From Bacillota bacterium (GTDB lineage: Bacteria > Bacillota > Sulfobacillia > JAJYWN01), in assembly GCA_021791495.1 (NCBI GenBank), contig JAJYWN010000068.1, positions 62,001 to 126,000 on the forward strand: a DNA stretch of 64,000 nucleotides. The letters are read 5' to 3'. The position numbers were made by a program, and so were the translations under genes. Each line of letters starts with the position of its first letter. Position 1 is the stretch's first letter. Under the pieces are notes generated by a model that worked only from the letters and a program-made list of their open reading frames with translations, searched no databases and had not been told where the DNA came from. Positions 25,720 to 50,233 of the stretch are shown in pieces.

Positions 25720-25791
25720 GGGCCCATAGCTCAGCGGTAGAGCTGCCGGCTCATAACCGGTTGGTCGTAGGTTCGAATCCTGCTGGGCCCA
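25720..25791 (+). tRNA. tRNA-Met (anticodon CAT)
   Basis: A complete cloverleaf: acceptor GGGCCCA pairs with TGGGCCC, D arm GCTC-AGCGGTA-GAGC, anticodon loop CTCATAA with anticodon CAT, and T arm containing GGTTCGAATCC. CCA is not encoded. A G1:C72 pair excludes initiator tRNA-fMet. The elongator Met identity is most likely; a tRNA-Ile2 whose C34 is modified to lysidine also has CAT, and sequence alone does not fully exclude it. Confidence 0.92.
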
Positions 25792-40898: not shown

Positions 40899-41239
40899 TT
40901 AACCGGGCTGGATGGTCGCGGGGGCCGCTGGGCCTCTGAGGAAAGTCCGAGCTCCGCAGGGCAGGGTGCTGGGTAACACCCAGCGGGGGTGACCCCAGGG
41001 AAAGTGCCACAGAAATATACCGCCGTCCGCACGGACGGCAAGGGTGCAACGGTGCGGTAAGAGCGCACCGGCGGCCGGGCGACCGGTCGGCCAGGTAAAC
41101 CCCACCCGGAGAAAGACCGAATAGGAGAGGGATGACGCTGCCCGCCGACCTCTCGGGTAAGGTCGCTGGAGACGCTTGGTAACAGGCGCCCAAGATAGAT
41201 GACCATCCGCGACAGGACTCGGCTTACAGGCCCGGTTAA
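40899..41239 (+). ncRNA. rnpB: RNase P RNA, class A-like
   Basis: The catalytic RNA of RNase P (tRNA 5' maturation). Universally conserved pieces appear in order: GAGGAAAGTCCGAGCTCC (CR I, about 40938-40955), ACAGAAATATACCGCC (about 41009), AGGGTGCAACGGTGCGGTAA then GAGCGCACCGG (about 41040-41070), AAACCCCACCCGGAG, and GATAGATGACCATCCGCGAC then AGGACTCGGCTTACAG near the 3' end. P1 is TTAACCGGGC (40899-40908) with GCCCGGTTAA (41230-41239), giving the borders used. The ancestral A type rather than the Bacillus B type fits Clostridia-like lineages. Confidence 0.97.
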
Positions 41240-41241
41240 AG

Positions 41242-41254
41242 GCCTCCTTTTTTT
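41242..41254 (+). terminator. rnpB terminator
   Basis: GCCTC (41242-41246) can pair with GAGGC (40893-40897), extending P1, and is followed by C and seven T (41248-41254). Confidence 0.7.
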
Positions 41255-45597: not shown

Positions 45598-47676
45598 TTG
45601 ACCGAACCCGCCAAAAGGCGGCTCACCTGTGAAGACTTCTACGCGCTGAAATTCACGAGCGACGTCCAGATCTCGCCGGACGGCAACCGCATCGCCTACG
45701 TCCTCAGTGTCGTGGCCAAAGAGGCCGACGACTACCGCTCTCACATTTGGATGGTGGACAGTGCGGGCGGACGTCCACGCGAGTTTACGAGCGGTCCGAA
45801 GAAGGACAGTTCGCCCCGGTGGTCTCCCGACGGCAAGACTCTGGCCTTCATCTCCGACCGCTCCGGGAAGAACCAGATCTTCCTCATCGACGTGGACGGC
45901 GGAGAAGCGCGCCAGTTGACCAAGGCGAAAAATGGCGCCTCCAACCCCGTCTGGTCGCCTGACGGAAAATCGGTGGCCTTCATTGCGCGCACCGGCCCCG
46001 AGGACGAGGGGCAGACCGAGGAAACCGGGAGCGGCGGCGGGGCCAAAGGCGCGGAAGCCATCCCCGGTGGCGCCGCAAAGGATGAGGAGAAGAAGTTCAG
46101 AGATCCCCTGGTCGTCACCAGACTTAAGTACAAAGCCAACGGACGGGGGCTTCTGGACTACCGGAAGAGCCACATCTGGGTCATCGGAGTGGACGGGGGC
46201 CCGGCCCGCCAAGTGACCGACGGGGAATATGGCGACACCGACCCCGCCTGGTCTCCCGACGGGAAATTCATCGCGTTCGCCTCGAACCGCACCGAGGACT
46301 GGGACCTGAACAACCTGAACGACATCTGGGTGGTGCCTGCCGAGGGTGGTGAAGCCCGCAAAGTCACCAATACTCTCGGCCCTTGCGGCGAGCCGGTTTG
46401 GTCGCCTGATGGGACCACCATAGCCTACGTCGGCCACCAGAACGAGTATCGCGGCTCGACCTACTCACATCTTTACACCATTCCGGCGGCGGGCGGGGAA
46501 GCCTGTAACCTCACGGCCTCTTTCGACCAGGCCGTGGGCAGCGGAATCGGCAGTGATATGCGGTCGGGTGCGCATAACGGGGGTCCGGTATGGTCGGCGG
46601 ACGGTACCGAGATCTACTTCCCCGCCGCGGTCGGGTCGACCAGCGGTGTCTACAAGGTCGCGGCCGTCGGTGGTGCGGTCGAACCGGTGTTGCAGGGGGC
46701 CTTTTCCCTTGTGGCGCTCAGTTACGACGCCGTCCGGCGCCATGTCGGCTACGCGGCCACCGACCATCTCACCCCGGCCGACGTTTGGTCGTGGGAACTG
46801 GGGGCGGAGTCGGCCCCGCGGCGGCTGACCAAGGTCAACGACGGTCTCCTTTCGGCCGTGGCGCTTTCGGCCCCCGAAACCATCCACTACAAGTCGGTGG
46901 ACGGCCTGGAGATCGAGGGTTGGCTGGTGCGTCCCGTGGGTATGCAGGCGGGCAAGAAATACCCCATGGTCCTGGAGGTCCACGGCGGGCCGCATTCGGC
47001 CTTCGGACACGCCTTCTTCATGGAGTTTCAGATCCTGGCCTCCCTGGGGTATGCCGTCCTCTACACTAACCCACGCGGCAGCGGCAACTACGGGCAGGAT
47101 TTCACCCGCTCGGTGGTGGGTGACTGGGGCGGCATGGACTATCAAGACTTGATGGCGGGCGTGGACTACGCGCTGGCCACCTACGATTTCCTCGATGCCG
47201 GGCGGCTTGGCGTGACCGGTGGCAGCTACGGGGGGTTCATGACCAACTGGATCGTCGGCCACACCGACCGGTTCATCGCGGCGGTGACCCAGAGGAGCGT
47301 CGTGGACCGCCTCAGCTTCTACGGGACCAGCGACATCGGCGCCCTCTTCGGCGACCACCACTTCCCGGGCAACCCCTGGGACGACACGGAGAAGGTGCTT
47401 GACCGTTCGCCTTTGCAGTATGTGAAGAACGTTGTCACCCCGCTCCTCATCATTCACTCGGAGCAGGACATCCGGTGTCCCATCGGGCAGGCGGAGGAGT
47501 TGTTTACGGCCCTGCGGCGCCAGAAGAAAGTCGTGGAGTTTGTCCGCTTCCCGGCTGAAAACCACGAGTTGTCCCGGTCCGGCAAACCCAGCCGCCGGGT
47601 GGAGCGCTACCGCCGGATCACGGGATGGTTCCTGAAGTACAATCCGCCGAAGGAAGAGGATTACGACAGGACTTGA
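45598..47676 (+). CDS. S9-family prolyl oligopeptidase / acylaminoacyl-peptidase
   Basis: A 692-aa S9C-type serine peptidase. Residues 1-430 form a propeller of WSPDGK repeats (SPRWSPDGKTLAFISD, PVWSPDGKSVAFIA, PAWSPDGKFIAFAS, PVWSPDGTTIAYVG). The alpha/beta-hydrolase domain follows, with the catalytic Ser in GVTGGSYGGFMTN (about 542), Asp in HSEQDIRCP (about 623) and His in ENHELSRSG (about 655). No signal peptide, so cytosolic. TTG 45598 has GAGGGGAGGAG upstream. The next gene starts inside its stop. Confidence 0.92.
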   Translation: MTEPAKRRLTCEDFYALKFTSDVQISPDGNRIAYVLSVVAKEADDYRSHIWMVDSAGGRPREFTSGPKKDSSPRWSPDGKTLAFISDRSGKNQIFLIDVDGGEARQLTKAKNGASNPVWSPDGKSVAFIARTGPEDEGQTEETGSGGGAKGAEAIPGGAAKDEEKKFRDPLVVTRLKYKANGRGLLDYRKSHIWVIGVDGGPARQVTDGEYGDTDPAWSPDGKFIAFASNRTEDWDLNNLNDIWVVPAEGGEARKVTNTLGPCGEPVWSPDGTTIAYVGHQNEYRGSTYSHLYTIPAAGGEACNLTASFDQAVGSGIGSDMRSGAHNGGPVWSADGTEIYFPAAVGSTSGVYKVAAVGGAVEPVLQGAFSLVALSYDAVRRHVGYAATDHLTPADVWSWELGAESAPRRLTKVNDGLLSAVALSAPETIHYKSVDGLEIEGWLVRPVGMQAGKKYPMVLEVHGGPHSAFGHAFFMEFQILASLGYAVLYTNPRGSGNYGQDFTRSVVGDWGGMDYQDLMAGVDYALATYDFLDAGRLGVTGGSYGGFMTNWIVGHTDRFIAAVTQRSVVDRLSFYGTSDIGALFGDHHFPGNPWDDTEKVLDRSPLQYVKNVVTPLLIIHSEQDIRCPIGQAEELFTALRRQKKVVEFVRFPAENHELSRSGKPSRRVERYRRITGWFLKYNPPKEEDYDRT

Positions 47677-48687
47677 TAGTCACTCCTGACCAGGTTCTGG
47701 CCGCCGCCAAGCGCATCCGGGGCCTAACGCGTCCCACGCCGCTGGTGGAATCGCCCATCCTGGCAGAAATAGCTGAACAGGATCTTATGCGCCGCTACGG
47801 AGCTGGGGGAGATCCCGCCCCCAGCTCCGCGGCGTGCCCAGGGCAACCTTTGTTACCGGTCTGGCTGAAGCCCGAGAACCTGCAAATAGCAGGGTCTTTC
47901 AAGGTGCGGGGCGCCGCCAACAAGGTGCTCTCCCTCTCCCAAAGCCAGCTCCAGAGCGGGCTTGTCGCCGCTTCGGCCGGCAACCACGCCCAAGGCCTGG
48001 CGCGGGCCGCCCGGCTGGCGGGCGCCAAGGCCACGGTGGTCATGCCGGAGACCACGCCGAAGACCAAGGTTGACGCCACGCGCCGCCTGGGCGCCGAGAT
48101 CGTGTTCTGGGGGAGGTCCTACGACGAGGCGGAGGACCATGCACACCAACTGGAACGACAACGGGGGTTAACTTACGTCCACGCCTCGGATGACCCCAAG
48201 GTGGTGGCCGGGCAGGGCACGGTGGGGTTGGAGATTTTGGAGGAGTTGCCCGACGCAGCGCAGATTATCGTGCCGGCGGGGGGCGGCGGCCTCATTTCCG
48301 GTATCGCCGTCATCGTCAAGGCCATCAACCCGCGCATCCGCATCGTGGGCGTGCAGTGACTTCGCCTTGGTAACGGAGGACGAGATCGCCTTCGCCATTG
48401 GGTGGCTCTTGAACCACCATCATCTGGTGGTGGAAGGTTCCGGGGCGGTCGGTGCGGCCCTCATCCTGTCGGCCGTGGGCGCCATCCCTAATCGCTCCAT
48501 CGTGACGGACGCCGCCAGTGCCTCTGCCGTGACCGCGGCCGGTTACCAGCGGCTCACCGCGACCGGCCGGCCGGTCCACGAACTCCTGACTGGCCGCACC
48601 GCGGTCGTCCTTTCCGGCGGGAACATAGATCTGGACCGCCTCTTCCGCTGTTCTCAATCGTTTGCGGGCCTGAGCCTTCCGAACTAG
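47673..48687 (+). pseudogene. ilvA: Threonine ammonia-lyase, disrupted by internal deletion and frameshift
   Basis: Two frames together make a threonine deaminase (IlvA/TdcB). The first (TTG 47673 to TGA 48357) has NLQIAGSFKVRGAANKV with the PLP lysine, SAGNHAQGLARAARLAGA and the phosphate loop PAGGGGLISG. It ends right after RIRIVGVQ. A second frame resumes at DFALVTEDEIAFAIGWLL and runs to 48687 with LVVEGSGAVGAALIL and VVLSGGNIDL. About 45 residues normally present between these points are missing and the frame shifts. The enzyme would make 2-oxobutyrate for isoleucine; this copy should be inactive unless the junction is an assembly error. Confidence 0.85.
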
Positions 48688-48865
48688 CCCCCCATGTTGG
48701 GATCGGCCGCGACCCACCGGTCTTCGGTGCTACCCTTCAAATTCTGGACTGTTTACAGTTAGGGATCTCTGCACGCCGCGCACACTAGCCACGGTCTTCT
48801 GCGGGCGATCTCTCTATGCCGGCGAAGGAAGACGTCAGTTTTCAGCTCAGTAAGGAGGCTTTGGC

Positions 48866-49459
48866 GTGGAGATGTGGCTATGCGGTACGTGCAAGCATCT
48901 GGCCGTTGGCGGCGAGGCGCCTAACCAGTGCCCTGTCTGTGGGGCGTCCCACGACCGGTTCCAGACGTTTTCTGAAGGAGCCCAGGTGGATGAGCAGGAC
49001 CAGATCGTCGGCTCCGTGACCGAGGGGAATCTGAAGTCGGCTTTCGCCACCGCGGCGCAGGCGAACCGCAAGTACCTGGCCATGGCCGCTCAGGCGGAGC
49101 TGGAGGGGGAGACCGAGGCCGGCGAGGCTTTCCGTCTTGTGGCCGAGGACGCCACCCACACCGCTCTTGCCCTGGCCGCGCGGCTGGGGTGGCTGCGCGG
49201 CACCTTGGCGAACCTGGAGGACTCGGTGGACGGGGAGAAGTATGAGAGCGAGACCATGTATCCCCGTTTCGCCTTCCAGGCCAGGCAGGAAGGTTTCGCC
49301 GATGTGGCTACGTACTTGGAGCATCTTGCGGCGATGGGTAGGGACCACGCTGGGCGTTTCCGCGAGACTACGGGCCTGGTGCGGGCTGACCTCGGCCGGG
49401 CCGGTGCCCCCGCTGCTCCTCCTCACCGGACGGATGCTGGGAAGCCGTTCCAGCGCTGA
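48866..49459 (+). CDS. Rubrerythrin-like protein with N-terminal rubredoxin domain and incomplete diiron site
   Basis: A 197-aa protein. An N-terminal rubredoxin-like knuckle pair (CGTCKHLAVGGEAPNQCPVC, residues 6-25) precedes a ferritin-like four-helix domain (about 50-170), the reverse-rubrerythrin layout. GE-x2-E (GEKYESETMYPRF) is kept, but other iron ligands seem lost: the first-helix Glu is Ala (AFATAAQANRKY), ExxH of helix 2 is DATH, and the last ExxH is GRDH. Peroxide reduction by a normal diiron centre is doubtful. GTG 48866 follows AAGGAGG. The 48688-48865 spacer shows no gene. Confidence 0.82.
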   Translation: MEMWLCGTCKHLAVGGEAPNQCPVCGASHDRFQTFSEGAQVDEQDQIVGSVTEGNLKSAFATAAQANRKYLAMAAQAELEGETEAGEAFRLVAEDATHTALALAARLGWLRGTLANLEDSVDGEKYESETMYPRFAFQARQEGFADVATYLEHLAAMGRDHAGRFRETTGLVRADLGRAGAPAAPPHRTDAGKPFQR

Positions 49460-49991
49460 ACCGGCAGGCCCCGTGGTTGATATTCTGGGGCCAAGCCTGA
49501 CCGTGCTGTTCATCGGCTTCAACCCCGGCACCCGTTCCGGGGAGATCGGCCACCACTTCGCTGGGCGGAACAACCGTTTCTGGACTCTCCTGCGCGATTC
49601 CGGCCTTACGCCGACGCTCCTGGCCGCCGAAGAGGACGCCCGAATGCTGGACCTGGGGTTTGGCCTGACGAACCTGGTGGCCAGAGCCACGCCGGGGTCC
49701 AACGATCTGCGCGCGGCGGAAATGAAGGAGGGCGCCGAAGTCCTCCGGGCAAAGATCGCCCGCTGGCGCCCCCGTTTCGCCTGTTACCTTGGGAAGGGCA
49801 TCTATCGCTGGGTCGCCGGCGGGCCGCTGCCCTTTCAATACGGCCTGCAAGACGAATCGGTGGTGGCCGGCGTCGCCGACTTTCTCGCCCATTCGCCCAG
49901 CGGGCGCAACGCCGTACCCTATTCGGAGAAGCTGGAGGTCTTTCGACGCTTGGCTGAAGCTGTGGCCCAAGCCCGTTCGGGCAGCCGCTAG
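49434..49991 (+). CDS. mug: Mug-type mismatch-specific DNA glycosylase
   Basis: A 185-aa uracil-DNA glycosylase superfamily protein of the Mug/TDG type, removing U or T opposite G. The active-site motif VLFIGFNPGTRSGEIGHHFA (about 25-44, with the N-P-G asparagine) is followed by GRNNRFWTLLRDSG, then LTNLVARATPGSNDL near 82 and HSPSGRNAVPYSEKLEVF near 152, matching the second catalytic loop (N-P-S-G type; here S-P-S-G). The start is uncertain: ATG 49434 overlaps the preceding stop; GTG 49473 would also leave the domain whole. Confidence 0.85.
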   Translation: MLGSRSSAEPAGPVVDILGPSLTVLFIGFNPGTRSGEIGHHFAGRNNRFWTLLRDSGLTPTLLAAEEDARMLDLGFGLTNLVARATPGSNDLRAAEMKEGAEVLRAKIARWRPRFACYLGKGIYRWVAGGPLPFQYGLQDESVVAGVADFLAHSPSGRNAVPYSEKLEVFRRLAEAVAQARSGSR

Positions 49992-49999
49992 TCTGCTAA

Positions 50000-50233
50000 C
50001 TATGTTTTCCGAATCTCCACCCGCCAGACCTCGGGTCCCTTCTCCAGGTACTCCCACTGGAACTGACCCGCCCTTTCGGCCTGGAACTGGTAGTACAGGG
50101 GACGGGGGTCGTGATCGTTCACAAGTACCATCGCTTCGCCCGGCGCCAACCGTTCGAAGGTCTCAAAGATCGTGGAGTGCTTGTGGGCTACGGGAATCGG
50201 TCGGACGTCCAGAACAACAGCCTGTTGAGCCAT
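50000..50233 (-). CDS. DUF2249-domain protein
   Basis: A 77-aa protein: VVLDVRPIPVAHKHSTIFET (residues 6-25), GEAMVLVNDHDPRPLYYQF near 32-50 and GPEVWRVEIRK at the end are typical of DUF2249, a TusA/SirA-like fold. The TusA-type Cys is absent, as usual for DUF2249; the conserved H-D-P and Y-Q residues are present. Members often occur with nitrite, hemerythrin or sulfur genes; no such partner is seen here. GGAGGATCACTC precedes ATG 50233. The 50234-50510 spacer shows no other gene. Confidence 0.85.
   Translation of the reverse strand: MAQQAVVLDVRPIPVAHKHSTIFETFERLAPGEAMVLVNDHDPRPLYYQFQAERAGQFQWEYLEKGPEVWRVEIRKT

Follow-up and report, generated by a model that had tools for sequence, protein, structure and literature searches.

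The gene at 48866–49459 (+) of the window, that is, of the whole 64,000-nucleotide stretch analysed here, encodes a protein with the domain architecture of a reverse rubrerythrin in which four of the seven ligands of the diiron centre have been replaced. A rubrerythrin-type diiron centre is unlikely, because all four ligands of one metal, including those that bridge the pair, are gone, and judging from the sequence the usual rubrerythrin enzyme activity has probably disappeared with them. Our preferred reading, which we hold tentatively, is that the protein descends from reverse rubrerythrins, with the fold and the FeCys4 centre of its rubredoxin domain intact but the diiron peroxidase centre lost.

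The open reading frame is an intact gene of 197 codons plus stop, beginning with GTG. Pfam profiles PF21349 (residues 4–32) and PF02915 (residues 55–167) both score above their cut-offs on the 197-aa protein, and this order, with the rubredoxin domain at the N-terminus and the ferritin-like domain after it, is that of the reverse rubrerythrins. The gene and its parts are laid out as follows.

48852..48858, + strand: Shine-Dalgarno-like AAGGAGG, 7 nt ahead of the GTG start
48866..49459, + strand: reverse-rubrerythrin-like gene, PF21349 and PF02915 above cut-off
48866..48976, + strand: N-terminal rubredoxin-like domain, residues 1-37, with C6, C9, C22 and C25; 12 of 12 family invariants present
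49001..49369, + strand: ferritin-like four-helix domain, residues 46-168, from Pfam; model mean pLDDT 89.7
49391..49456, + strand: C-terminal extension, residues 176-197, found in none of L006, L007, L008 and L035; pLDDT below 50 from residue 187

The cysteines of the rubredoxin domain, already described as retained in a sequence-only reading of this DNA, form two CxxC knuckles that should be able to assemble a FeCys4 centre, as expected of a rubredoxin. The protein scores 80.4 bits against the NCBIfam rubrerythrin equivalog NF045767, below the curated cut-off of 200, a result to which the classical domain order may contribute. A sequencing or frame artefact within the gene is disfavoured in this one assembly, as there are zero stops or frameshifts and the G+C content by codon position is normal (0.716/0.508/0.792). 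A scan of 48600–50000 detected neither a sigma-70-like promoter nor a terminator. An inverted repeat, ACTGTTTACAGT (ACTGT-TT-ACAGT), lies upstream of the gene at 48748–48759; 24 of 100 shuffles give as many matches, which is within chance for a 64-kb window.

The AlphaFold2 model (23-row alignment, window protein included; mean pLDDT 89.7) has a strand-containing N-terminus followed by four predicted helices at residues 51–79, 83–106, 113–141 and 145–179. Its closest solved folds are the Burkholderia pseudomallei rubrerythrin 4di0, the engineered E53A E124A form of that protein (9onr) and the sulerythrins, with Z scores of 12.4–12.9 over about 130 residues; Z values below about 13 can be common among helical bundles, and several of the lower matches are generic helical bundles. 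The best Foldseek E value for the model is 2.2e-7, and sequence matches to rubrerythrin structures, with E values down to 1.4e-19, indicate the same kinship as the fold.

Aligned over the ferritin-like domain, the protein reads AATEEGH at the ligand positions, against the canonical pattern EEHEEEH: Glu63Ala, Glu96Ala, His99Thr and Glu158Gly are losses (4/7), and Glu124, Glu127 and His161 are present (3/7). It does not, in other words, carry the seven ligands (E, E, H, E, E, E, H) that define a reverse rubrerythrin. The codons concerned, with their sulerythrin equivalents as counted along the sulerythrin sequence, are listed below.

49052..49054, + strand: codon 63, Ala replaces ligand Glu (sulerythrin Glu20)
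49151..49153, + strand: codon 96, Ala replaces bridging ligand Glu (sulerythrin Glu53)
49160..49162, + strand: codon 99, Thr replaces ligand His (sulerythrin His56)
49235..49246, + strand: codons 124-127, Glu124 and Glu127 present (sulerythrin Glu92, Glu95)
49337..49339, + strand: codon 158, Gly replaces bridging ligand Glu (sulerythrin Glu126)
49346..49348, + strand: codon 161, ligand His present (sulerythrin His129)

From helix A to helix B the alignment with the four reverse rubrerythrins L006, L007, L008 and L035 is gap-free, and D95, T97 and A100 occupy positions that are invariant in all four, which places the helix B ligand Glu at A96 and the ligand His at T99; Asp95 and His98 each lie one residue off the ligand positions. 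The sequence-only reading had rightly singled out the Ala of AFATAAQ (A63) and the Gly of GRDH (G158) as changed metal positions and GE-x2-E (E124 and E127) as retained, but it had mis-registered helix B, taking the Asp of DATH for the substituted Glu and the His as retained. That register is ruled out by A96 and T99 at the ligand positions and by D95, a non-ligand residue invariant in the four reverse rubrerythrins. The loss that it reported is genuine, but involves four metal positions instead of three, one of them a histidine.

Asp95 and His98 nevertheless bear on a different proposal, namely that a working dinuclear site has merely been displaced, with these two residues, D160 and the kept ligands rebuilding the metal pair. 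D95-x2-H98 does reproduce the E-x2-H ligand spacing, and H98 is new at its position, next to the His that was lost. However, the invariance of D95 as a non-ligand tells against such a role, as does helix B, whose predicted continuity over residues 83–106 would turn D95 and H98 about 100 degrees off the core, and neither an acidic residue nor a His stands within three residues of the lost helix A Glu to replace it. We consider a displaced site very improbable.

The four losses do not fall evenly over the two metals. The account of sulerythrin in PMC9589262 gives Glu20, Glu53, Glu126 and His56 as the ligands of the iron, and Glu92 and His129 plus the bridging Glu53 and Glu126 as those of the second metal, with Glu95 at the bound oxygen species. 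Read against that account, the window protein lacks the full ligand set of the first metal, both bridging glutamates included, and keeps the non-bridging set of the second; given four losses, the probability of hitting precisely this set is 1 in 35, for a pattern spotted post hoc. Y70 and Y132 are retained as well, at the positions of sulerythrin Tyr27 and Tyr100, which are modelled close to the site (PMC9589262). Loss of a single ligand would by itself be no proof of metal loss, because the sulerythrin variant E126A, like E53D:E126D, is reported still to hold two irons (PMC12851003).

Such a partition might mean that a dinuclear rubrerythrin has become a mononuclear non-heme metalloprotein by removal of one metal site and both bridges, with E124, E127 and H161 holding a single Fe, Mn or Zn beside the fused rubredoxin domain, which could reduce it. 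The kept set being the complement of one sulerythrin metal, the retention of Glu127 even though six distant homologues vary there, and the two tyrosines all speak for this. On the other hand, the second metal has lost its two bridging carboxylates as well, which leaves two or three protein ligands, and the retained residues, tyrosines included, may have a structural role. We regard a mononuclear site as quite unlikely. If this reading is true, the rubrerythrin scaffold would have gained redox sensing or a new chemistry with oxygen or superoxide. Of the roles raised in the sequence-only reading (a different metal, an electron carrier only, or a sensor), sequence at most favours the electron carrier, and no feature pointing specifically to a sensor was found; the underlying idea of an abnormal diiron site is supported and strengthened by the fourth lost ligand.

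Among homologues the ligands are close to universal. All 57 homologous ferritin-like domains in a first census (L002 and L006–L061) read EEHEEEH in the alignment. This set comprised the best-scoring matches of our searches, class and phylum-sample matches included, minus self and duplicates; the phylum sample (398 genomes) contributed its best 30 loci, and the window locus itself (L001), L003 and L004 (the same open reading frame as L002) and L005 (a partial domain) were excluded. Since these 57 were the best-scoring matches, a further 95 ferritin-domain matches of the class search (154 genomes) were added, of which 86 read EEHEEEH and six deviate at the fifth position alone. The remaining three domains are incomplete: L134 falls at the start of a contig, L160 is interrupted by N's, and L153 is a fragment in which the first ligand position is additionally Lys. 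The six Glu127-type variants (L157, L161, L162, L164, L165 and L166), all distant ferritin-like homologues, carry S, A or G there and keep the other six ligands. A loss like that of the window protein occurs in 0 of the 152 domains. Fourteen class-search matches lie outside the census: 13 cover the rubredoxin part only (query within residues 1–63), and G011:C13:18051-18323 covers query residues 1–90 with one stop.

Conservation elsewhere in the protein is high. It keeps 16 of the 17 non-ligand columns that are invariant in all 57 homologues, compared with 3 of 7 ligands (Fisher p 0.014), and the sole one lost, Gly62, adjoins a lost ligand. The contrast is weaker when columns conserved at 90% or more (27 of 34 others kept, p 0.07) or 80% or more (34 of 43, p 0.06) are taken, and when only the four reverse rubrerythrins serve as reference, 36 of 44 others are kept (p 0.04). 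In the full-length alignment with these four, 12 of 12 invariants of the rubredoxin domain are kept and 39 of 51 in the ferritin-like domain, ligands included. Neutral drift simulated from the window gene gave a window-like contrast (at least four ligand codons changed, at most one other invariant changed, no stop) in no more than 0.00125 of 4000 runs at each of eight divergences. Both the contrast and the simulation tests were devised after the data had been seen.

These figures weigh on the main deflationary explanation, relaxed selection or drift towards a pseudogene in one lineage, in which the ligands were lost without any new function. In its favour are the occurrence of the form in a single genome, the longest terminal branch of the tree (2.39), a broken gene directly upstream and a canonical rubrerythrin elsewhere in the genome. 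General decay nevertheless fits poorly, because 16 of 17 non-ligand and 12 of 12 rubredoxin invariants are kept; the 197 codons run without stop or frameshift, and the simulation, post hoc as it is, seldom yields such a contrast. We take relaxed selection to be unlikely, while treating it as the most serious of the competing explanations.

In the tree the window protein and the four reverse rubrerythrins, to which it is 44–46% identical, form a group of five with support of 99/96, to be read with caution for long-branch effects: the terminal branches of the four relatives measure 0.34–1.17, and the placement of a row with a branch as long as that of the window protein is unsure. Full-length reverse-type matches are listed in 4 of the 154 genomes of the class, the window's own included, and among the matches listed for the phylum sample of 398 genomes one further genome (G170) has the full-length reverse type. 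No close orthologue with the same losses was found, and in the collection searched the family of the window protein comprises one genome only. Besides self, none of the matches listed exceeds 49% identity in the class (154 genomes), the phylum sample (398) or the class of G170 (15 genomes, E up to 1e-22), and with L006 as query no further full-length reverse-type match is listed in 61 genomes related to G008 (E up to 1e-25). Among GTDB contigs one locus matched, L005 in an archaeal contig (42% identity in the best segment); IMG/VR gave no match, and the eight plasmid and two phage records retrieved are all below 60% identity. The absence of such an orthologue from these searches counts against the preferred reading, as do the long terminal branch and the broken gene upstream. 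L036 and L037 are longer proteins with rubredoxin domains flanking the ferritin-like domain on both sides, preceded by a domain that by eye looks flavin-reductase-like.

The upstream neighbour is a broken PLP-dependent (threonine dehydratase-like) gene at 47625–48687 (+), in two pieces in different frames and lacking the central part of the PALP profile (about positions 192–240); two other open frames matching it, of 378 and 356 aa, occur elsewhere in the genome. Downstream lies a gene of the uracil-DNA-glycosylase superfamily; its candidate starts, 49434 and 49473 among them, either overlap the end of the reverse-rubrerythrin-like gene or come shortly after its stop, an arrangement that suggests co-transcription of the two genes. 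The window also contains a full-length bacterial RNase P class A RNA at 40900–41242 (+) and a tRNA at 25720–25791.

The genome encodes a canonical rubrerythrin (L002) with all seven ligands. Its gene adjoins a Fur-family gene and another for a small protein (926–1456 of locus L002, minus strand), the N-terminus of which is rubredoxin-like and the rest helical-looking. It also encodes one more PF02915 protein, and no match to the PF00301 rubredoxin profile was found in it. In L006 and L007 a Fur-family gene adjoins the reverse rubrerythrin itself. As two other PF02915 proteins are encoded in the genome, the window protein might be a non-catalytic partner subunit that assembles with a second ferritin-like protein into mixed oligomers. 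Sulerythrin is described as a dimer with swapped domains and two bimetallic sites (PMC12833474), so half-sites from two different subunits could come together in such an assembly. Both other proteins are, however, encoded on another contig, and L002 falls in the tree with forms remote from the reverse type. We regard a partner role as the most improbable of the explanations considered here.

Returning to the preferred reading, a reverse rubrerythrin without its diiron centre, the protein would be made and folded but would no longer hold two bridged irons, and reduction of H2O2 or O2 in the rubrerythrin manner would be absent. Its N-terminal rubredoxin domain would most likely still cycle between Fe(III) and Fe(II) as a one-electron carrier, a role favoured because this domain keeps all 12 invariants of the four reverse rubrerythrins, and the helical bundle would serve mainly as a dimerising scaffold. 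No electron partner for the rubredoxin domain was identified. Peroxide reduction would then be left to the separate canonical rubrerythrin that adjoins the Fur-family gene.

As the ligands are nearly absolute among the homologues compared here, a natural protein without those of one metal could serve directly to test the roles that the fused rubredoxin domain and the ferritin-like scaffold play once the diiron centre is gone. It also calls for caution in domain-based annotation, in which the PF02915 match above cut-off would suggest a peroxide reductase despite the lost active site. In the open-licence literature searched, a source that makes for a weak absence, we found no published rubrerythrin with this type of ligand loss, whether as pseudoenzyme or as missing-ligand form, and our literature search found no paper describing 9onr.

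'Reverse-type' is named as a rubrerythrin group in PMC5114695, and revRbr1 and revRbr2 of Clostridioides difficile are reported to carry out NADH-linked reduction of O2 and H2O2 in vitro (PMC7482061). The reverse rubrerythrins L006, L007, L008 and L035 share the N-terminal rubredoxin and following ferritin-like domain of the window protein, but have seven of seven ligands and no C-terminal extension, where the window protein has three of seven and an extension. Sulerythrin of Sulfolobus tokodaii has the same fold (Z 12.4–12.8) and ligand positions that match one to one, but no rubredoxin domain, which the window protein has. Its laboratory variants described in PMC12851003 alter one or both bridges, and two irons remain; the window protein is additionally without the ligand Glu of helix A and the ligand His of helix B. 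The top structural matches are the B. pseudomallei rubrerythrin 4di0 (Z 12.7) and its engineered form 9onr (Z 12.9), whose Ala pair (E53A E124A) corresponds in position to A96 and G158. That man-made protein lacks a rubredoxin domain and retains the Glu of helix A and the His of helix B, whereas the window protein is a natural one that has lost both of these ligands as well.
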